Part shown: one piece after another, positions 2,550 through 14,887 of the stretch
How positions within the stretch are numbered: position 1 is the first letter of the stretch
Layout: each line of letters starts with the position of its first letter
Origin: Paludisphaera soli
Lineage (GTDB): Bacteria; Planctomycetota; Planctomycetia; Isosphaerales; Isosphaeraceae
Assembly: GCF_011064595.1 (NCBI RefSeq)
Contig: NZ_JAALJI010000018.1
Span: 1-64,000 of the forward strand
DNA: 64,000 bases
Direction: 5' to 3'
Made by a program: the position numbers and the translations under genes
The notes under the pieces: generated by a model
Database searches by the model: none
Told to the model about the DNA's origin: nothing
The model's input: the letters and a program-made list of their open reading frames with translations, nothing else

Positions 2550-4058
2550 TCAGCCCTGGTATTCCGACCCGGCCCCGTACCCCGCGACGCCCGCGGCGAT
2601 CCGCCGCTTGACATGCGCGACCAGCTCGGGCGTCGCCCCGGAGACCTCCCACCGCGCCAGGCCGTCCTCGCTCTGCGAGATCCGCTGGCAGACCTGCAGC
2701 CAGTCGTCGGCGAGCTGCGTATGCTCGTCGACGTCCAGCGGAAGGCCCCAGCGCATGAGGGTGGCTTCGAGGTCCATGCCGTTCTTCATCCGCGAGAGCG
2801 AGCGGAAGCCCTGCCCCTCGAAGCTCTCGCGGACCGCGTCGAGGGCGGCGGCCCGGCTCGCGTCGTCGGGGAACTTGTAGCCCCACTCCCGCTCGCGCGC
2901 CGTGGTCCCCTGGATCTCGAAGAGCCGCTCGAACCGCTCCGGGGCCTCTCCCCACACGCGGGCGACCCGAAGGGCGAAGGCGAGCGTATTCTCCGTGCAA
3001 TACCGGCCGCCGTCGAGGGGGAAGGCCTCATAGAAGTGCGCCGACTCCTCCACGGCCCCGAACCGGGCCGGGTCGCGGGCCAGGCTCTCCTTGATCTGCG
3101 AGTGGCCGTTGCGGATCACGTCGACGGCCACCCCGCACCGGGCCATCTCGACGATCGCCAGCGGGTTCGACTTCAAATCGGCGAAAACCCCCAGCCCCTC
3201 GCCGGGGTGCCGGCGGCGGATCTCCGGCATGATCGCCGCGTAGACGAAGCTCGACGACAGGTACGTCCCGTCGCCCCGGTAGACGTCGAGCCGATCGCCG
3301 TCGCCGTCGAAGAACATCCCGAGCAGGGCGCCGGAGGAGCGCATCGCGGCGAGGCCGGGGGCGATCACGTCCCGCTTGACCGGGTTGGGGTCGCCGAGCG
3401 GGAAGGCGCCGTCGGCGGCGAAGTGCAGCGGGGCCAGTTCGGCCCCCGCCCGGCCGAACGCGAGCATCATCTCGCGGCCGGCGGCCCCGAACAAATAGTC
3501 CTGAAACACCCGGACCCCGCCCAGGCCGCCGGGCTCGACCCCGGCCAGTTCCATGCTGAAGGCGACGTAGTCGTCGATCAGCTCGACGGCGCGGATCGAC
3601 CCGCGGCGGGGGGCGAGGGTCGAGGCGTCGTCCCGGTAAAGCTCCTGGATCCGGTCGAGGCCGCCCTCCGGGCCGATCTCGCGGGCGATCGGCAGGACGC
3701 CCGGCGCCAGGAGCTTGCGGCCGGTGTCGCCGGCCGGATTGTGCGAGGCTCCGAACATCACGGCGGCCAGGTCCGGGTGCCGCATGGCCGCGTAGTAGAA
3801 CAGCGAGGTCGACGAGACGCCCGGCAGGACGACAACCTCCAGGCCGGCGTCGCGGTAGGCGTCCGCGGCCATCGTCAGGTGGCGCGGGCCGGTGCTCCGG
3901 GCGTCGTGGGCGATCACGACCCCCGGCGCGTCGAGCACATCGCGGAAGTACCGCGCCTCGGCCCGCGCGAGCCGGCCGGACAGCTCCGGGGTCAACAGCG
4001 CGGAGGGGGTCCGGATGTCGTAGGCCCGGAACATCGAGAGGTTCAGGTCGTCGGCCAC
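2550..4058 (-). CDS. Phosphomannomutase/phosphoglucomutase family protein
   Basis: This 502-residue alpha-D-phosphohexomutase interconverts hexose 1- and 6-phosphates. The phosphoserine loop reads FGASHNPAGDTGRK (family consensus TASHNP), the metal-binding loop is DGDGDR in FFDGDGDRLDVY, and the sugar-binding EESAH motif follows. The GTG at 4058 is chosen because it lies 1 base past the kinase stop (TGA at 4062-4060). An upstream in-frame ATG at 4265 would overlap the kinase by about 200 bases and encode low-complexity residues. In this operon it would move glucose-1-phosphate released by the uridylyltransferase into glycolysis. Glucose versus mannose preference is not determinable here. Confidence 0.88.
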   Translation of the reverse strand: MADDLNLSMFRAYDIRTPSALLTPELSGRLARAEARYFRDVLDAPGVVIAHDARSTGPRHLTMAADAYRDAGLEVVVLPGVSSTSLFYYAAMRHPDLAAVMFGASHNPAGDTGRKLLAPGVLPIAREIGPEGGLDRIQELYRDDASTLAPRRGSIRAVELIDDYVAFSMELAGVEPGGLGGVRVFQDYLFGAAGREMMLAFGRAGAELAPLHFAADGAFPLGDPNPVKRDVIAPGLAAMRSSGALLGMFFDGDGDRLDVYRGDGTYLSSSFVYAAIMPEIRRRHPGEGLGVFADLKSNPLAIVEMARCGVAVDVIRNGHSQIKESLARDPARFGAVEESAHFYEAFPLDGGRYCTENTLAFALRVARVWGEAPERFERLFEIQGTTAREREWGYKFPDDASRAAALDAVRESFEGQGFRSLSRMKNGMDLEATLMRWGLPLDVDEHTQLADDWLQVCQRISQSEDGLARWEVSGATPELVAHVKRRIAAGVAGYGAGSEYQG

Positions 4059-4059
4059 G

Positions 4060-5511
4060 TCAACGCTCCTCGATCCCGCGATCGGCGAACCGCACCCGCA
4101 CCCCGACGGCGCAGGCCCCCGGCGACGAGCCGGTGAACACGTAGGCCTCGCGGCCGGTCTCCCGCTCGTACCGCCGCGCGACGCCCGCCACGGCGTCCCC
4201 GGCGTCGGCCCGGCCGAGCACGGCGACCGTCCCGCCGCTGCCGCCGCCGGTGATCTTCGCCCCATACAGCCCGGATCCCGGGCCGGCCTCGCGCACCAGC
4301 TCGACGAGCCGGTCGGTGCCGTCGGAGCCCAGGCCGCAGGCGGAATAGCTCGCGTGCGATGCGACCATCAGATCGCCCATCGCGCGGAGTTCCGCCTCCC
4401 CCGGCCCGCCCTCCAGGAGTTCGGCGAACAGGCGGACGCGGGCGTTCTCGCCGATCGGGTGGGCCGTCGGCAGGCGGACGGCGTAGGTGCGGGCCGGGTC
4501 GACGCGCGTGACCGGGTCGGTCGTCCCCCCGTAGCGAGCCAGGAACTCGGCCCCGGTGATCGACTCGGGCAGGTCCGGCTCGAACCGAGCCGCGAATTCC
4601 TCCGGCGCGAGGTTCGCCAGGTAGCCGCCCCAGCGAGGGTCCTCGATGTGCAGCACGCCGTCGTCGGCCCGCGTGATCGGCCCCAGGCCGGCGAGATCCG
4701 CGAGCATCCGATAGCCCATGAAGGCCCCGACGCGGACCGAGGAGTAATCGCTCCCGGCGACCGCGTGCCGGATGCCCGAGTCGACGCCCCAGAAGGCCAC
4801 GCCCGGCGGCGCCGCGACGAACCCTCGCACCTCGGCAGGCTGGCAGAGGAGCGCGAGCAAGCGGTCGGCCCGGCCGAGCGCGGAGGCCATCTGGTCCATG
4901 ATGCCGCAGGGGGCGCCGACGACGACGTTCTCGGCCACCTGACAGAGCCGCGCCAGCTCCGCGCCGTCGATCTCGACGCCGAACAGCCCCGCGACGGCCC
5001 GCATCACCGACACCTCCAGCGCCGCCGACGAGCTGACCCCCTTCCCCTCCGGCACGTCCGACCGCACGGCCACCCGCAGGCCGCCCGACCGATCGGGGAG
5101 CAGCCCCGGACGCTCGCGGAGCAGCACGGCGATCGGGCCGACGACGTAGGCGGCCCAGTGGTCGGCCGGGTTGCGCTCGAACCGCAGGCGGGCCGCATCG
5201 AGGCTCTCGTAGTCGCCCAGGCCCAGGATGATCTCGGCCGGCAGTTCGATCGAGCGAGCCGGGCCGCCCGCCGATCCGGGAAGGCTGGTGATGCGCAGCG
5301 TCCCGTCTCCGGCCTGCTGGGCCGCGGCCAGGGCCGCCTCGCGGATGGGCCACTGGAGGACGAGCGAGCCGGAGTAGTCGGCGATCCCGCCCATCACGTC
5401 GAGCCGGCCCGGCGCCCGGGCAAGGGCCAGGGGGCGGGAGGGGTCGAACAGGCCGCTTCCGGCGATCCGAGCGTCGAAGTCGTCGAGATCGTGCCGGGCC
5501 GGGTCAGGCAT
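4060..5511 (-). CDS. GHMP sugar kinase, L-arabinokinase (ARA1)-like, annotated classically as galactokinase
   Basis: This 483-residue kinase phosphorylates a sugar at C1. GHMP motif 1 is [17 protein letters not shown] (about 33-49), motif 2 [11 protein letters not shown] (about 154-164), and motif 3 [12 protein letters not shown] near the C-terminus. Classical galactokinases carry a GEHTDYN signature in motif 1. Here [28 protein letters not shown] and [11 protein letters not shown] instead match the C-terminal kinase domain of plant L-arabinokinase ARA1 as I know it. L-arabinose and D-galactose share C2-C4 stereochemistry, so either could be the substrate. The gene overlaps the GalT-like gene by 8 bases and precedes the mutase by 1 base. 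Kinase identity is certain; the substrate is inferred. Confidence 0.85.
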
Positions 5512-6556
5512 CGGGGCCGCCTCCGTCGGCGTGGGCGTGGGCGTAATGAACGGCCGGCACCGCCCGCAGCTCGGCCGCCTTCTCCTCGGGCGCGGTGTCG
5601 CTCAGGAAGCTGCCGCCGCCGATCTCCGGGCCGGCCAGATATTTCAGCAGGTTCGGCTTGCGCAGCGGCGGGTGGAACTCGATGTGGAAGTGGAACCCCT
5701 CGTGGCGCCGGCCGTCGGTGGGCGCCTGATGCAGGGCCATCACGTAGGGGAACGGCATCCGCCAGAGGTTGTCGAAGCGGATCTGCACCTCGTGGAGCAC
5801 GGCGGCCAGGTCGCGGACCTCCTCGGGAGACAGGTCGGCGAGGCTCTGGTGGGCCTGCTTCGGCACGACGAACGTCTCGTAGGCGTAGCGGGCGAAGTAC
5901 GGGAGGAAGGCGATGGCCGTGTCGTTCTCCGCGAGGATGCGCCGACCGTCGGCGCGCTCGGCGGCGATGACGTCCTCCATCAGCACGCGGCGGTGCTCCC
6001 GCCAGTGGCGAAGGCAGGTGGCGGCCTCGTTCTCGATCGTCTTGAACACGAAGTTCGTGGCGTAGATCTGGCAGTGCGGGTGCGGGTTCGAGACGCCGAC
6101 GACCTCTCCCTTGTTCTCGAACATCAGCACATGATTGACCTCCGGCCGGTCGCCCAGCTCGCGGTACTGGACCTGCCAGGTCCTCAGCAGGTCGGCGACG
6201 TGGGCGGTGTCCAGCTCGGCGAGGCTCAGGTCGTGGCGAGGCGTGTAGCAGACGACTCGCGCCAGCCCGGTGGCCGGGCGGTTGCGGTAAGGCGGCGGCG
6301 GCGACGGGAGTTCGCCCGGCGCGGCCGGCCCGACGCAGGGCAGGTCGTTGTCGAAGACGAAGACCCCCTCGTACGCCTCGTTCCTCGCCCCGCCGACCCG
6401 CGCGTTGCCGGGGCAGAGCGGGCAGCTCGGGTCGTACTCGGGCGCCTGCCGCGCCCCGCCGCCGACCGTCTCGCCGGTCCACGGCCGGTTGTTGCGGTGC
6501 GCGGCGACGATCACCCATTCCTCGCGCAGGGGATGCCAGCGCTGTTCCCACGTCAT
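5504..6556 (-). CDS. galT: Galactose-1-phosphate uridylyltransferase (GalT-like, HIT superfamily)
   Basis: This 350-residue enzyme transfers UMP between UDP-glucose and a sugar 1-phosphate via a uridylyl-histidine intermediate. The active-site motif [10 protein letters not shown] is intact, the N-terminal CPLCPG resembles the zinc CxxC, and HFHIEFHPP lies in the C-terminal half. The start [15 protein letters not shown] gives the normal family length. It is the first gene of the minus-strand operon; its stop overlaps the next start by 8 bases. The promoter region is shared with a divergent XylR-like regulator and contains a repeated operator-like element 85 bases upstream of the ATG. No galE epimerase is present in the window. 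The natural substrate may be galactose-1-P or L-arabinose-1-P. Confidence 0.9.
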
Positions 6557-6640
6557 GGCGACGACCCCACTCCAGGCTCTCGGCTCGGACGACCCACCGG
6601 ATACGATACGGGGCGTGGCGCGGCCGTCCAAGCCGCATTC

Positions 6641-6670
6641 GCGCAAAAAAACGCGACGATCGCGCAGCCC
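6641..6670. promoter_or_regulatory. Candidate operator, copy 1 (galT / regulator divergent region)
   Basis: This 30-base element has direct GCGCA half-sites at 6641-6645 and 6662-6666 (21-bp period) and an A7 tract after the first. It matches a second copy at 10163-10192 at 26 of 30 positions and in the same orientation relative to the minus-strand target gene. A 21-bp direct-repeat period is typical of AraC-family binding sites. It lies 39 bases before the regulator ATG and 85 before the galT ATG. Confidence 0.6.
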
Positions 6671-6709
6671 CCCGCCGGGTCGCGTACGATGGGCCGGGAG
6701 GTTCGCTTG

Positions 6710-7900
6710 ATGGCCGAGACGCCCCGAGTCGCCCTGCTGGTCGAGACGTCGCGCGGCTTCGGACGCGACCTGCTGCGGGGCATCATCCGTTATGCGCGGC
6801 TGCACGGACCCTGGGGCTGCTACGTGACCCCCGGCGACTTCGAGCAGATGCTGCCGAGGATGAAGGACTGGGGCGGCACCGGGATCATCGCCCGCGTCGA
6901 GACGCCCCGCGTGGCGCGGGCGATCCTCCGTTCCGGGCTGCCGACCATCGTGCTCGACCTCTCCGACGAGCAGCTCCGGCCCGAGAACCCGCTCTCGCGG
7001 CTCAGCGAGGTGGCGTCCGACTCCCGCGCGGCGGCCCGGATGGCCGCCGAGCACCTGCTCGACCGGGGTTTCCGGAACCTGGCTTACGTCGGCGTCACGG
7101 GCCGCGTCTGGTCGCGCCGGCGGCGGGAGGCCTTCTGCGCGCGGGTGCGGGAGGCCGGGCTCGAACCCCTGGTCTATTCCCCGCCCGCCCCCCGGGGGGG
7201 CCGGTCGAGCGGGGGCGAGCAGACGGCCCTGGCCCGCTGGCTGCGCGCCCTGCCGAGGCCCGCCGGCATCATGGCCTGCAACGACGACCGGGGCCGCGAG
7301 GTGCTGGAGGCCTGCCGCGACGCCGGTCTGCACGTCCCCGAGGAGCTGGCCGTCATCGGGGTCGACGACGACGAGCTGCTTTGCGAGCTGGCCGACCCGC
7401 CGCTCTCCAGCGTGGCCCTGAACGCCGAGCCGGGCGGCTACCGCGTGGCGGCCCTGCTCGACGCCATGATGCGCGGCCGGGTCCGCCGCCCGCGCCGCCT
7501 GCTCGTCGAGCCGTTGCACGTCGTGACCCGCCGTTCGAGCGACATCGAGGCCCAGGGCGACCCGGAGGTCGCCGCCGCCCTGCACTTCATCCACGACCGC
7601 GCCGCCGAGCCGATCGGCGTCGCCGACGTGGTCGACGACCTGATGATCTCCCGCCGGGCCCTGGAGATCCGCTTCCGCAAGTCCGTCGGCCGGACGATCC
7701 ACGCCGAGATCCAACGAGTCCGCCTGGAGAGGGTCCTGCGGCTCCTGCATGAGACGGACCTGCCGATCCCTCAGGTGGCGGAGGCCTCCGGCTTCACGAG
7801 CGCCAGCTACCTGTCGCAGGTCTTCCGCGAGGCGCTCGGCACCACCCCGGCGCGATACCGCCGCCGGATGCGGAGCGACCCGACCGACGGGCGTTCCTGA
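6710..7900 (+). CDS. XylR-like transcriptional regulator (LacI-type sensor + AraC HTH)
   Basis: This 396-residue DNA-binding regulator is close in length to E. coli XylR (392). The N-terminal two thirds resemble a periplasmic-binding-protein-like sensor ([19 protein letters not shown]; later [38 protein letters not shown]). The last ~100 residues form an AraC double helix-turn-helix ending [20 protein letters not shown] and TTPARYRRR. The ATG at 6710 is chosen for a GGGAGG box at 6696-6701 with 8-base spacing; an ATG at 6689 is also in frame. It is divergent from the sugar operon and convergent with the GH51 gene. It probably senses a pentose or galactose and activates both. Confidence 0.9.
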
Positions 7901-7927
7901 CGCCGGGAGGCGCGCCGAAGGCCGACG

Positions 7928-7968
7928 TGCGACGACGCCGCGGGCGCGCGGCCCGAGGCGTCGTCGCA
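7928..7968. terminator. Strong hairpin between convergent regulator and GH51 genes
   Basis: A perfect 12-bp stem, TGCGACGACGCC (7928-7939) pairing with GGCGTCGTCGCA (7957-7968), encloses a GC-rich 17-base loop. It sits in the 94-base gap between two converging genes. No U-run follows, so it is called from stem strength and position. Confidence 0.6.
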
Positions 7969-7994
7969 TGCGGTCGAGCGATCCTCGTCACTTT

Positions 7995-9959
7995 TCAGCG
8001 GAGCGGCAGCCGCACCACGGTGATGCTCAGAGGCGGGGCCTCCAGGCTGCCGTCGAAGCGTAGGGGACGCTCGACGATCTCCAGGCGGGCCTCGCCTGGG
8101 TCGTTGCGCAGGGACGGCGAGTCGCCCGAGACGGCCCAGGCGGTCCCCTCCTCGGCCGGCGTCACGCCCTCGACCGACAGCCGGACCGTGCGGGCCTTGT
8201 CCGTCGGGTTGACCAGGCCGACGGTCAGCGCCTTGCGGTCGGCCGTCAGGGCGGCGGTGAGGTCGAGGCCGCCCGGCTCGGCGGCCGTGGTCAGCTCGAC
8301 GGGGATCGTCCCGTAGTGGTGGCGGTGCATCATCAGCGGCAGAGCGGTCGATTCGAAGAAGGCGGCGGTCTTCGTCGTCTTGATGCAGCCGATGACGTTG
8401 ACCGTCTGGGCGTAGTGGGCCATGGAAATGACGTCCGAGTTGCGGAAGAACTCGTGCAGGCCGGTGGCCACGCCCAGGGCGTCGGCCAGGTCGTAGACGC
8501 AGCCCAGCTCGCCGTAGACGTACGGGCGATGCCAGTAGTTCCACTCGTCCATGGCGATGGGGACCGGCCGGCGGCCCGTCAGCCCCAGCTCCTTCTGGAG
8601 CTTGCGGTGCCCCTCGGCCTTGCCTCGGATCGCGTCGGCGAGCTGGCGGGCGTGCGCGGGGGTGTCGCCCTTGGCCTTGTCGTCGCGGTAGAAGTGCTCG
8701 GAGATCAGGTTCATGAACTTGGCGCACTCCTCGAGCATGCCGCGCGACCAGCCGCGGCGCTCGTCCGGGTCGTGGCGGCGGTTGATCGTGTCGAGGTCGC
8801 CCACGCCGATGAGCTGGAGCGAGGGGTCGACGGCCCTCATCGCCTCGGCGAACCCGTTGTGCTTGATCGTGTAGTGCTTCAGCTGCATGAAGCCGAGCTG
8901 CCAGGGGCCGAACATCTCGTTGCCGACGCACCAGTACTTGACGCCGTACGGCTCGGCGCGGCCGTTGGCCGCCCGCATGCCGCCGCCGATCGTCTCGGCC
9001 GGGCCGTTGCAGTACTCGACCTCCCGGGCGGCGGAGTCGGCGTCGCCGAAGCCGGTGTTGACGGCGACGACCGGCTCGGCGCCGATCTCGCGGCAGAAGT
9101 CGAGGAACTCGTCGAGCCCGAAGTCGTTGTGCTCCACGCCGGTCCAGGCGGGGTTGCGGCGGGGCGGGCGGCGGTCGCGCGGGCCGATGCCGTCGCGCCA
9201 CTCATACCCGCTGACGAAGTTGCCGCCCGGCCAGCGGTACATCGTGCCGCCGAGCTGTTTCAGCAGCGTCAGGGTGTCGGCCCGCATGCCGCGGACGTTG
9301 TCGGCCGGCATCAACGAGGCGGTGCCGATCAGGGCCGGGCCGCCCTCGATGCGGATCTCCAGCTTCGCCTTCTCGGTGTCGGCCCCGGCGGTGAAGGCCA
9401 GCTCGTGCCGCGTGAACTCGGGGCCGAGCCCGTCGATGCGGACGGCCTGCCGCTGATCGTCGCCGTCGCCCCAGGCCAGCGCGACCTCGGCGCGGGCGGC
9501 TCCCTCGGGGGCCTTCAGCCAGATGTAACCCGTGTACCCCTTGCCCTTCACGACCCCCAGGTCGTGCTGACGAATCGCGGCGCCCGGGGCGATCCGCGGG
9601 GTGTGTCGGCCGACGAAGGAGCCTTCGCCGACCATCGTCACCGCGTCGGCCGCGCCGACGATCTCCCAGGGCGAGGCGCCGACGACCGGGAACGCCGTGT
9701 CCCGCAGCGACCGGTACGGGTCGTACTTGGCGGTGACGGGGAAGTAGAACTTGCGGTCCTCCAGCATCTCGGCCCAGATCCCACCGTAGATGCAACGGCC
9801 GAGATGCTCGATGAACTGGCCGTAGGTGTAGGGGTTGATCTCCGGGGCGGCGCGGTCGGCGTGCACCGTCACGGTCACGGCCGGCTGGTCCTTGGCCTGG
9901 GCCGCCGCGGTCAACAGCGTGCATCCCAGCCACGCCATCATGCCTGTAGACTTCTTCAT
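7995..9959 (-). CDS. Alpha-L-arabinofuranosidase, GH51
   Basis: This 654-residue secreted enzyme removes L-arabinofuranosyl side chains from arabinoxylan or arabinan. An N-terminal signal peptide (residues 1-22, ending AAAQA) precedes INPYTYGQFIEHLGRCIYGG, an inserted beta-rich carbohydrate-binding-like segment (about 95-215), the TIM barrel and a C-terminal beta domain. The acid/base glutamate is in CVGNEMFG (about residue 348) and the nucleophile in AMDEWNYW (about 472). The start at 9959 is the ATG that gives the signal peptide. A 30-base operator-like element shared with the galT operon lies 204 bases upstream, suggesting common control by the XylR-like regulator. Confidence 0.93.
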   Translation of the reverse strand: MKKSTGMMAWLGCTLLTAAAQAKDQPAVTVTVHADRAAPEINPYTYGQFIEHLGRCIYGGIWAEMLEDRKFYFPVTAKYDPYRSLRDTAFPVVGASPWEIVGAADAVTMVGEGSFVGRHTPRIAPGAAIRQHDLGVVKGKGYTGYIWLKAPEGAARAEVALAWGDGDDQRQAVRIDGLGPEFTRHELAFTAGADTEKAKLEIRIEGGPALIGTASLMPADNVRGMRADTLTLLKQLGGTMYRWPGGNFVSGYEWRDGIGPRDRRPPRRNPAWTGVEHNDFGLDEFLDFCREIGAEPVVAVNTGFGDADSAAREVEYCNGPAETIGGGMRAANGRAEPYGVKYWCVGNEMFGPWQLGFMQLKHYTIKHNGFAEAMRAVDPSLQLIGVGDLDTINRRHDPDERRGWSRGMLEECAKFMNLISEHFYRDDKAKGDTPAHARQLADAIRGKAEGHRKLQKELGLTGRRPVPIAMDEWNYWHRPYVYGELGCVYDLADALGVATGLHEFFRNSDVISMAHYAQTVNVIGCIKTTKTAAFFESTALPLMMHRHHYGTIPVELTTAAEPGGLDLTAALTADRKALTVGLVNPTDKARTVRLSVEGVTPAEEGTAWAVSGDSPSLRNDPGEARLEIVERPLRFDGSLEAPPLSITVVRLPLR

Positions 9960-10350
9960 GACTGGACCTACGCCTTTTGTCGGTAGGGAGGGGCCTCGCC
10001 AGGGACAGGGCCGACGGCGCGGGGCGGGCGCCTCGCGGTGACGGAACGATCTGCACGACTCGATCTGCGAAGCTCGGACCCGCGGCTTTCCCCATCGCAC
10101 GACCGCAGCCGCGGCTTTCTCGCACGATAGGCCCCGACCGGGTCGATCACAAGACCGCGACCGCGCAAAAAAATGCCACGATTGCGCAACCCCTCCCTCC
10201 GCCCTTCCCCGGCCTTCTTCGGCTGGGTTTGGCCCTTGCGCGAAGCCCCGCATATGCTCCCCGTGCAGCACCCCGGATCCGGCCGTGCCGGCAGCCCGAG
10301 CGACCGAGCGGTTGTGCGGCGACATGTCGGCTCGGACCGAATCAGGCCGG
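9960..10350. other. Intergenic promoter region of GH51
   Basis: This 391-base gene-free stretch separates the GH51 start from the GH43 stop. It holds the operator-like repeat copy 2 (10163-10192). Short frames here lack coding character. No clear -35/-10 pair was recognised. Confidence 0.5.
10163..10192. promoter_or_regulatory. Candidate operator, copy 2 (upstream of GH51)
   Basis: Second copy of the 30-base element: GCGCA half-sites at 10163-10167 and 10184-10188, A7 tract after the first, 26/30 identical to copy 1. The second half-site lies inside the palindrome TTGCGCAA. Conservation between two otherwise unrelated intergenic regions next to functionally linked genes supports a regulon. 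Confidence 0.6.
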
Positions 10351-11946
10351 TCACTCGGGGGAGTCGATCCGGTCGCTGATGCGGAAATCGTCGAAATCGA
10401 CGAACCCGCCCGGCGTCCTCGTCGCGAACTGGAACAGGGCGAAGCGGTAACCCATGAAATGCGGCAGGGTGTAGGTCATGCGGAGCGGCTTGCCGATCTC
10501 GGACCAGCTCGCGCCGTCGAGGCTATAGGCGAAGCGGGCCGTGTCCTTCCGACCCCGGAAGTCGCACTCCAGCCGCAGGAAGACGGTGTCCTGCGCAAGC
10601 GGCGCGACCTCGACCTCCGTCGGTGAGTCGGCCTCCGCGATTACCATGACGAGGGACCTCGCATCCCCCGTCGCCCTGACGCCGACGAAGCCGTATCGCC
10701 TCTGGAGCGCGGCCAGGCCGGCGACGTCGCCGTCGTTCATGTGGGCCACGTCGAGGGTCACGACGGCCGAACTGGTCGGGCCGAAGGTCCGCTGGGTCAG
10801 CGTATTGCGTGCGGCGAGGAGATCGGCGTCGACCCGCCCGGTCGTCAGCCGCAGGAACCCGGGGCGCTGGGTGAGCGACCAGTGCTCGTCCTCGGGGTTG
10901 TGATTCCACTGCCACGCGAGCGGGAGCGGCGGATCTCCGGGGCCTCGATCGAAATCGTCGGAGCCGACGATCCCCCGCACGCCGAGGGTGCTCGCGGGGA
11001 GATTCAGCGCCGCGGGGACCTTGCCGTCGACCCCCATGACGGGCCAGCCGTCCTCCCACGTCACCGGCACGAGGAAGGGGATGCGGCCGACCGCGCCGTG
11101 ATCCTGGAAGAGCAGCGCGTACCACTCGCCGTCGGGCGTGTCGACAAGGCCGCCCTGGGCGACGCCCTGGTCCTGCAGCGCGACCCGGCCCTCGTAGGGG
11201 CCGGTCAGCGAGTCGGCGCGGAAGGTGAGCTGGGTGCGCATGCCGCCGCGGGGCCAGGTGATGAGCGAGAGGTAGTACCTCCCGTCGATCTTGCGGAGCT
11301 GCGAGCCCTCGGCGGGCAGGCCGATGTTGCGGCCGGCCGTGGCGCTGGCATTGGGGACGATGATCCGGTCCACCCCGCCGGGCTTGATCCCCGAGAGGTC
11401 GGAGTTCAGCTCGGTGAGGCGGATGTTGCCGGCGCCGTGGACCATGTACGCACGACCGTCGTCCTCGAAGAACAGGGAGTGGTCGTGCAGCGAGGGCCGG
11501 AAGGACGTCTTCTCCCAAGGACCCGCCTCGGGGTCCTTGGTCCGGTAGATGTACGTCTTGCCGGTGGTGCCGGAGAAGGTCGTGACGTAGAACGTGCCGT
11601 CGTGGTGTCGCAGGCTGCTCGCCCACGAGCCTCCCCCGTACGCGTTCCTCCCATTCCGGAGCGCCAACGCGTCTTCGTCGTCGAGGACGTCGTAGGCGTA
11701 GCCGACGAGCCGCCAGTTCACGAGGTCGTTCGACTTCATGATCGGCAGCCCCGGGCTCACGAGCATCGTGGTGCTGCTCATGTAGTAGCTGTCGCCGACA
11801 CGGATGTCGGCGAGGTCCGGCACGTCGGACCAGAGGATCGGGTTGACGGCCCGGTCCCCGACCTCCTGCGCGTGGGCGAGCGGGCGGTCCGCCGCGCCGG
11901 GCCCGATCAGCAACGAGAGCACGGCGGCCGCGACCCTGGGGCGCAT
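10351..11946 (-). CDS. GH43-family glycoside hydrolase (beta-xylosidase / arabinofuranosidase type)
   Basis: This 531-residue secreted enzyme has a signal peptide (about 1-28, ending AHAQ). The five-bladed propeller begins NPILWSDVPDLADIRVGDSY, whose aspartate is the usual catalytic base position; blocks WASSLRHHDGTFYVTTFSGT and SLHDHSLFFEDDGRAYM follow. The C-terminal ~200 residues form a concanavalin-like domain (SDDFDRGPGDPPLPLAWQWN) as in large GH43 xylosidases. The start at 11946 is chosen because AGGAGG (11953-11958) is 6 bases upstream; the ATG at 11952 directly abuts that box. It is the second of four arabinoxylan-degrading genes on this strand. Exact specificity (xylosidase versus arabinofuranosidase) is open. 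Confidence 0.9.
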   Translation of the reverse strand: MRPRVAAAVLSLLIGPGAADRPLAHAQEVGDRAVNPILWSDVPDLADIRVGDSYYMSSTTMLVSPGLPIMKSNDLVNWRLVGYAYDVLDDEDALALRNGRNAYGGGSWASSLRHHDGTFYVTTFSGTTGKTYIYRTKDPEAGPWEKTSFRPSLHDHSLFFEDDGRAYMVHGAGNIRLTELNSDLSGIKPGGVDRIIVPNASATAGRNIGLPAEGSQLRKIDGRYYLSLITWPRGGMRTQLTFRADSLTGPYEGRVALQDQGVAQGGLVDTPDGEWYALLFQDHGAVGRIPFLVPVTWEDGWPVMGVDGKVPAALNLPASTLGVRGIVGSDDFDRGPGDPPLPLAWQWNHNPEDEHWSLTQRPGFLRLTTGRVDADLLAARNTLTQRTFGPTSSAVVTLDVAHMNDGDVAGLAALQRRYGFVGVRATGDARSLVMVIAEADSPTEVEVAPLAQDTVFLRLECDFRGRKDTARFAYSLDGASWSEIGKPLRMTYTLPHFMGYRFALFQFATRTPGGFVDFDDFRISDRIDSPE

Positions 11947-12018
11947 CTTCATCCTCCTGTTCCAACTCGACGTATCACGCATACCCGCGGGCTCATGCCT
12001 GGAGCCCTGTTATGCCCC

Positions 12019-13275
<1,257 letters not shown>

Positions 13276-13337
13276 GGGAGCACCTCCGGTTGGGAAAACC
13301 CCTGAATTGCGGCCGCGGTTTGGATGTCCAGGCCCAG

Positions 13338-14549
13338 TCAGGGCGTGCGCAAGGCTTCGAGGACGGCTTCGAACGCGGGCTTGGGCTGAAGTTGCCGGTC
13401 CCAGAGGAGCGGGTGGTTGGTCCGGCGGGGCACCGGGAAGTTGTTCAGCCAGGATGCACCGTCGTGCGCGCCCCAGAAGGTGACGCGCGTCACGATATCG
13501 GGGTGCTTCAGCACGACCCGAAAGATCCGGCCGTAGAATCGGGCCTGCTCCTCGGCGACTCCCGCGGGCAGCCCGTTCGTGTAGGGGTCGGCCCCGCCCT
13601 GCTCGCGGATGGCGACGTCCGCGCCCCGGGTTCGGCGCGGGAGGACGTCGACGTCGACCTCCGTCAGCATGACGTTCACCCCCTCGGCGGCGTAGGCCTC
13701 GATCGCGCGGTCCAGCCGATCGGCCGAGTCCGGGTCGTCGAGCCGCAGGTGGGCCTGCATCCCGACGGCGTCGAGCCGCACCCCCGCGGCCTTGAGCTCG
13801 CGGATGAGCCGGATCGTCCTCTCGAGCTTGCCGGGGTTCTCGTTGCCGTAGTCGTTGTAATACAGCTCGGCCTTCGGGTCGGCCGCTTGGGCGAACTCGA
13901 ACGCCTTGACGATGTAGTCGTCGCCGATCGCGCGGCGGGCCGGCGTGTCGCGCAGGTATTCCCCCGGGCGGTCGCTGATCGCCTCGTTGACCACGTCCCA
14001 GCCGAGGACCTTGCCCCGGAAGTGGCCCGCGACCGCGGCGATGTGGGCCTTGAGGTTCTCCAGGGCTTCCTCGCGCGGGAGCGGTTTGCCGTCCTGGGAC
14101 TGGAACAGCCATCGCGGCGCCTGGCTGTGCCAGCAGAGGGTGTGTCCGACCACCTTCATTCCGTTCTTCTGGGCGAACTCGACGAGCCGGTCGGCGCCCT
14201 CGAAGCGGAACTCCCCCGGCCGCGGTTGGAGGGACATCGGCTTGAACTCGTTCTCGGCGGTCAGCGAATCGAACTGCTCCGCAACCAGCATCGACAGTTT
14301 GGGGTCGCCGAGCTGTCGGGACGAGACGGCCGCGCCCAGGAGGAAACGCTCCTTCACGGCCTGGCGCAAGGTCTCACCCTCGGGGTCGGCCGCCGTGACG
14401 GCGGCCGGCTCGTCGGAGCCGCCGAGGCGTCCTTCGGTCAGTCCGGCGCCCTCGGCGGCCACTGCGGCGGCCCACAGGATCACGAGCGTCAGGGGCGACC
14501 ACTCTCGGACGCCAGGGCGCTGACACGGGCCGGGGTTGCGAGCGAGCAT
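13338..14549 (-). CDS. Endo-1,4-beta-xylanase, GH10
   Basis: This 403-residue secreted enzyme cleaves the xylan backbone. A hydrophobic leader (about 17-35, LTLVILWAAAVAAEGA) acts as signal peptide. The TIM barrel shows the GH10 hallmarks FDSLTAENEFKPMSLQP, VVGHTLCWHSQAPRW, the acid/base glutamate in WDVVNEAIS (about 189) and the nucleophile in MLTEVDVDVLP (about 297). The ATG at 14549 has GGAGG eight bases upstream; a start at 14606 would place charged residues ahead of the leader. It is the most upstream member of the four-gene hydrolase set and probably acts with the GH43, GH51 and CE1 products. Confidence 0.93.
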   Translation of the reverse strand: MLARNPGPCQRPGVREWSPLTLVILWAAAVAAEGAGLTEGRLGGSDEPAAVTAADPEGETLRQAVKERFLLGAAVSSRQLGDPKLSMLVAEQFDSLTAENEFKPMSLQPRPGEFRFEGADRLVEFAQKNGMKVVGHTLCWHSQAPRWLFQSQDGKPLPREEALENLKAHIAAVAGHFRGKVLGWDVVNEAISDRPGEYLRDTPARRAIGDDYIVKAFEFAQAADPKAELYYNDYGNENPGKLERTIRLIRELKAAGVRLDAVGMQAHLRLDDPDSADRLDRAIEAYAAEGVNVMLTEVDVDVLPRRTRGADVAIREQGGADPYTNGLPAGVAEEQARFYGRIFRVVLKHPDIVTRVTFWGAHDGASWLNNFPVPRRTNHPLLWDRQLQPKPAFEAVLEALRTP

Positions 14550-14887
14550 CGGTGTTTCCTCCGCCGTTCTTGGAACCAAGGAAGCCGGACAATCGGTTGC
14601 CCGCATGTGTTGAACTCGACCGTGCGGTCAATCTTCGCTCAACCTGTCGTGCAAACGAAGGGGGGAGTCGGACCTTGAGCTGTCTCGGCTTCGCTGTGGT
14701 GATCGTGCCTGGCCGGGTTCAGGGACCGTCGTCGGGAGCGATCGCCAGGGCGCGGCGCTGTGCTCCGACGACATGGTCCGGGGCAGGGACGGATCGATGT
14801 CGGCCGGGACGCGGCGGCCGTTCTCCGCACAACTCGGGAGAAATCAGGTCAACCGGAGGCGGATGTTGATCTTGGCCAGGGTCGTAT

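Follow-up and report, generated by a model that had tools for sequence, protein, structure and literature searches.

Predicted operators of a XylR-like regulator, built as 21-bp direct repeats, in front of galactose and arabinofuranosidase genes of Paludisphaera soli

Introduction

Two nearly identical short elements in one bacterial genome, one in front of a galactose-1-phosphate uridylyltransferase gene and the other in front of an alpha-L-arabinofuranosidase gene, raise the question of whether they are landing sites for the sugar-responsive regulator that is encoded between them. This is the situation in a 64,000-bp stretch of the Paludisphaera soli genome (positions 1 to 64,000 of contig NZ_JAALJI010000018.1, hereafter the window), for which a sequence-only reading had proposed operators of the AraC type. 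The regulator gene (6710–7900, + strand) encodes a protein with a LacI-type sugar-sensing domain and an AraC-type double helix-turn-helix (HTH) and is a homologue of Escherichia coli XylR. The N-terminal LacI/periplasmic-binding-protein sugar domain is recognized by PF13377 (E = 2.6e-40) and by PF22177, PBP1_XylR (27.8 bits against a cut-off of 27), and the C-terminal AraC/XylS double HTH by PF12833 (E = 2.2e-19) and PF00165 (E = 4.2e-12), while the match to E. coli XylR (4fe4/4fe7) covers the full length of the protein (phmmer E ∼1e-59, residues 5–384 of 396).

To the left of the regulator, galT (5504–6556, − strand; TIGR00209 above cut-off) is the first of four genes that apparently form one leftward operon, the others being a galactokinase-like GHMP kinase gene that overlaps galT (4060–5511, −), a gene for a phosphoglucomutase/phosphomannomutase-like enzyme (2550–4265, −, as the open reading frame is listed, with the true start probably nearer 4061) and a sodium:solute symporter gene (708–2537, −) whose nearest solved relatives are SGLT sugar cotransporters. 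To the right, and convergent with the regulator gene, lies the gene for a family GH51 alpha-L-arabinofuranosidase (7995–9959, −). Directly upstream of GH51, the genes for GH43, CE1-like esterase and GH10 enzymes (10351–14606) make up an arabinoxylan-type cluster that carries no copy of the element.

Results

The 30-base elements at 6641–6670 (GCGCAAAAAAACGCGACGATCGCGCAGCCC) and 10163–10192 (GCGCAAAAAAATGCCACGATTGCGCAACCC) are identical at 26 of 30 positions, and in both of them GCGCA is repeated at exactly 21 bp together with an A7 tract, as the sequence-only reading had described. Its core repeat stands, but the limits that it set do not, as an alignment of twelve conserved sites from six genomes (see below) shows that the conserved unit begins about 8 bp before the 30-base element, and the A tract is therefore a spacer between two half-sites. 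The element is better framed as two copies of the 13-bp CCnnGATCGCGCA separated by an 8-bp A-rich spacer (6633–6666 and 10155–10188). Predicted operator 1 (6633–6666, +), which is located between the galT start at 6556 (−) and the regulator start at 6710 (+), has its half-sites at 6633–6645 (CCGCATTCGCGCA) and 6654–6666 (CGACGATCGCGCA) around the 8-bp spacer AAAAAACG. Predicted operator 2 (10155–10188, +) lies 195 bp before the point where GH51 starts (9959) and has its half-sites at 10155–10167 (CCGCGACCGCGCA) and 10176–10188 (CCACGATTGCGCA) around the spacer AAAAAATG. The register of 21 bp is the same in all twelve conserved sites. The two elements had also been said to share one orientation relative to their genes, a description that fits galT and GH51, both on the − strand, and does not fit the regulator gene, which is on the + strand. 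Similarity between the two copies is largely limited to the element itself.

The element is rare. When three mismatches are allowed, a degenerate pattern of 29 bases still matches only the two elements in the window, where shuffled sequence predicts none, and no pair of 30-mers agreeing at 26 of 30 positions occurred in five Markov-shuffled windows. The real window does hold three other pairs of 30-mers at or above 26/30 (34674/50554, 19333/43698, and 4298/14176), one of them at 28/30. In the whole 7.97-Mb genome GCGCAAAAAA-N8-14-GCGCA is found in these two places only, and a looser motif, again allowing as many as three mismatches, yields one further match, at three mismatches. The scattering of the element through the genome, which the sequence-only reading had named as evidence against its proposal, was not seen, since there are two copies in 7.97 Mb. 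While the whole genome was scanned with patterns, a matrix trained on the other five genomes was run on the window and on the individual loci, and it gives 45.7 bits for operator 1 and 48.9 bits for operator 2, the next position in the window scoring 6.7.

Both elements lie next to promoter-like sequences. On the galT side, a −10-like TATCGT (6603–6608, −) is 33 bp from the first GCGCA and a putative −35 hexamer, TTGGAC (6626–6631), adjoins operator 1, and on the GH51 side a −10-like TATCGT (10124–10129, −) is 34 bp from the first GCGCA and a putative −35 hexamer, TTGTGA (10147–10152), adjoins operator 2. The −10 hexamer matches the consensus at four of six positions and the −35 hexamers are weaker. 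Read in the direction of galT/galE or GH51, nine of the twelve flanks of the conserved sites have a TATCGT that begins 33–36 bp beyond the edge of the first GCGCA, and these nine include every GH51 flank of the six genomes. One more flank has TATCTT, and on the galT side of two genomes (G001 and G002) a TAGGCT-like sequence stands in its place; the background for TATCGT is nine occurrences on both strands of the 64-kb window (9 per 128 kb). An operator that adjoins a −35-like hexamer, with TATCGT 33–36 bp away, would be in the position of an activator. An automatic promoter scan returned no sigma-70 promoter at its threshold, and this result and the weak −35-like hexamers may be what is expected of an activator-dependent promoter, but they are also compatible with over-reading of the hexamers. 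For the regulator itself there is a weak −10-like TACGAT (6685–6690, +), the position of which is not conserved between genera and the −35 of which would overlap the second half-site, and the placement of the operator relative to the regulator's own promoter likewise differs between genera.

The distribution of the element follows that of the regulator. Among 45 genomes of the order, six spanning three genera have a regulator orthologue (69–81% identity; at least 69% in five genomes, this one included, with the sixth, G020, represented by an 81% fragment at a contig end). In all six orthologue-bearing genomes the 21-bp GCGCA repeat precedes the regulator gene, from which galT or galE diverges, and one site is upstream of a GH51 gene in all six as well, with no mismatch in five (G000, G016, G020, G032, and G001) and one mismatch in G002. 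Across the 45 genomes, those that have sites before both the regulator and a GH51 gene are exactly the six with the orthologue, a co-occurrence with a probability of 1.2e-7 if the genomes were independent, which they are not. Given the shared ancestry of the orthologues, part of this conservation could be inherited, and the twelve sites do not represent twelve independent events. In G001 the GH51 site (10,275,483) and the regulator site (5,723,568) are 4.55 Mb apart on one contig, and linkage alone therefore cannot explain the pair. A further one-mismatch site in G002, GCGCAGAAGAACGTCAAATTTGCGCA (C113:25880, L052), is near a methylmalonyl-CoA-mutase-like gene and represents either chance or an extra member of the regulon.

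The GH51 genes that follow the element differ more than the element does. The window GH51 shares about 25% identity with its counterparts in G016, G032, and G001 (compare also loci L048, L007, and L009), and a search for the G001-type GH51 at 1e-80 found it in G002 and G032 and not in G000, G016, or G020. This suggests that the GH51 enzymes under the operator represent three lineages, the third being less certain as the G016 and G020 contigs are cut. Because the GH51 genes belong to different lineages, the wiring from regulator to GH51 appears to have outlived the GH51 enzyme itself, with the operator and the regulator conserved over different GH51 lineages. G001-type GH51 orthologues are also present in two genomes of the same genus as this one, G029 and G030, that have no regulator orthologue; there is no site at them, and the matrix stays at or below 5 throughout both loci. 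A site is also missing at the G002 gene (C281) whose product is 65% identical to the window GH51.

Genomes without the regulator have few matches to the motif and these are mostly in coding sequence, as in G022 and G024, where they are inside rlmN-like coding sequence (G025 has near-identical sequence), and in G015, where another coding sequence is matched; G008 has one intergenic match and no regulator. Extending the search to 392 genomes of the phylum gave matches in 22 genomes, this one included. At the new loci no regulator relative, galT, or GH51 is next to the site, and the exact motif therefore belongs to this orthologue group. One of these loci, L066, has a weak galactokinase match (32%).

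The planctomycete genomes that were searched carry many XylR-like regulators, and the 21-bp period is also found in front of relatives of the regulator studied here. A 59%-identical regulator from a Pirellulales metagenome-assembled genome (MAG) has TCGCGTA-N14-TCGCGCA, with the 21-bp period, just upstream (matrix score 14.1). At the same locus (L120:4889–4922), a second and weaker GCGCA-type repeat (2.2) is in the next intergenic region downstream of the regulator, before a LamG-like gene, and its relative orientation is the same as at GH51. Regions upstream of 102 related regulators, drawn from planctomycetes, verrucomicrobia, Bacteroidota, and other groups with the GCGCA orthologues excluded, have near-perfect 9-mer repeats at period 21 in 25 cases, compared with a mean of 3.9 at other periods; some of these regions are mutual orthologues and a few matches are low-complexity or coding, such that the computed Poisson value overstates the significance. 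The period-21 repeats carry different half-sites in different groups of regulators. The recognition-helix regions of the GCGCA orthologues are mutually alike (SRR-A/S-LE-x-RFR and S-YL-A/S-Q-x-FR) and unlike those of paralogues with other half-sites. Individual XylR-type regulators (e.g., at L017, L034, L039, L085, L097, L126, L127, and L154) have 21-bp direct repeats of their own upstream, and the repeats seen among them are TTTCGGTCA, ATTGCGTCA, TTGAGATCC, TTCGCGACA, ACGCCAATTTGCG, CACCATTTTT, and ATCCATTTTGCG. We consider it reasonably likely that LacI-sensor/AraC-HTH regulators of several phyla share a 21-bp tandem direct repeat, usually before their own gene, with half-site letters that diverge by paralogue (GCGCA, CGGTCA, TTGCGTCA, GAGATCC, and CCATTTTG), that sequence could serve to predict operators and regulons for many uncharacterised regulators of planctomycetes, and that the regulator-GH51 wiring has here been kept across GH51 lineages.

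Discussion

We propose that the XylR-like regulator encoded between the two elements very probably uses them as its operators, with direct repeats as binding sites and sugar-responsive activation as the predicted outcome. The repeat, its position, its uniqueness, its conservation, and its co-occurrence with the regulator are properties of the genomes as they stand, and because all six species with the regulator carry one signal in the same two places, the elements are predicted to be landing sites for it. The proposal of AraC-type operators made in the sequence-only reading is supported by the genome-wide uniqueness of the element, its co-occurrence with the regulator orthologue, its fixed placement in six genomes, the unlinked target in G001, and its absence at the GH51 genes of G029 and G030. 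As 21 bp correspond to two helical turns, a regulator dimer would place its two AraC-type DNA-binding domains one behind the other on the same side of the helix. With sugar bound in its LacI-type domain the regulator would sit on the operators and bring RNA polymerase both to the operon of galT, galK, mutase, and symporter genes and to the gene for the arabinofuranosidase, and operator 1 could also allow it to adjust its own expression. As the targets are Leloir genes, an SGLT-like symporter, and an arabinofuranosidase, they suggest D-galactose and/or L-arabinose, which have the same configuration at C1–C4, as the inducer more than xylose, although xylose may yet fill this role.

Some of the same evidence can be read in other ways. 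The regulator might bind these sites mainly as a repressor that is released by sugar in the manner of LacI, as its LacI-type sensor domain would allow and as would fit autorepression in G000 and G032, where the operator and the −35 of the regulator gene's promoter would overlap. We consider this unlikely, since at galT, galE, and GH51 the operator is upstream of the −35 rather than over the −10 or the start, with the distance of 33–36 bp conserved, and the relatives that have been studied by experiment, XylR of E. coli and XylRA of Vibrio, act as activators (PMC12125979). It is less probable still that the element is bound by a different transcription factor to which the regulator is merely linked. 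A literature search found no paper with binding data for any planctomycete member of this group, which leaves room for such a factor, but within the three genera the site and the regulator have the same distribution, species with the regulator having the site and those that lack the regulator lacking the site too, GH51 orthologues in genomes without the regulator have no site, and 21-bp repeats precede the genes of related regulators themselves.

The remaining explanations do not involve a regulatory protein. A terminator scan picks out the two sites, read on the − strand, as a hairpin followed by T7, yet it is very improbable that the element is an intrinsic terminator, as operator 1 is between divergent genes with no leftward transcript to end, and the folding of ten conserved elements gave no common hairpin, the structures being different and mostly no better than those of shuffled sequences. 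Two copies only 3.5 kb apart in one genome could also be a dispersed repeat, the remnant of a mobile element or a recent duplication of one promoter. This can practically be set aside: the similarity is largely limited to the element, genome scans give two copies only, and the two placements are seen again across three genera with different GH51 genes.

Phylogenetic footprinting supports one regulator-operator-target set, with a matrix, a short list of targets, and one unlinked target, and the rule of a 21-bp register could help to predict operators for the many paralogues of this regulator. Our literature search found no paper on a planctomycete XylR operator, nor on a sugar regulon of the Planctomycetes with a DNA-binding motif. 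Among known systems, E. coli AraC at araI1-I2 recognizes tandem half-sites 21 bp apart that are immediately upstream of the −35, and the elements described here resemble it in having 21-bp tandem half-sites, which here adjoin putative −35 hexamers, although AraC differs in having an unrelated cupin-type sensor and DNA-looping sites. E. coli XylR shares with the present regulator its full-length homology, the combination of LacI-type sensor and AraC-type domain, and direct-repeat operators at divergent sugar promoters. Its operators at xylA/xylF are, however, AT-rich repeats in contrast to the GC-rich half-site GATCGCGCA, and it controls genes for xylose isomerase and an ABC transporter rather than the predicted targets galT, galK, a symporter, and GH51; control of xylA, xylB, or xylose transport was not seen here, the sites being only before galT/galE, the regulator, and GH51. 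The XylR homologue XylRA of Vibrio, from a beta-1,3-xylan locus, is likewise an XylR-type regulator with a direct-repeat motif, found by cross-genome comparison and tested by gel shift, and it recognizes AT-rich direct repeats and is an activator whose effector is xylose (PMC12125979). It differs in its xylose effector, its xylan genes, its AT-rich motif, and its gammaproteobacterial host (PMC12125979). Hence the predicted set of operators and targets described herein is well supported as a new regulon of a known regulatory kind.
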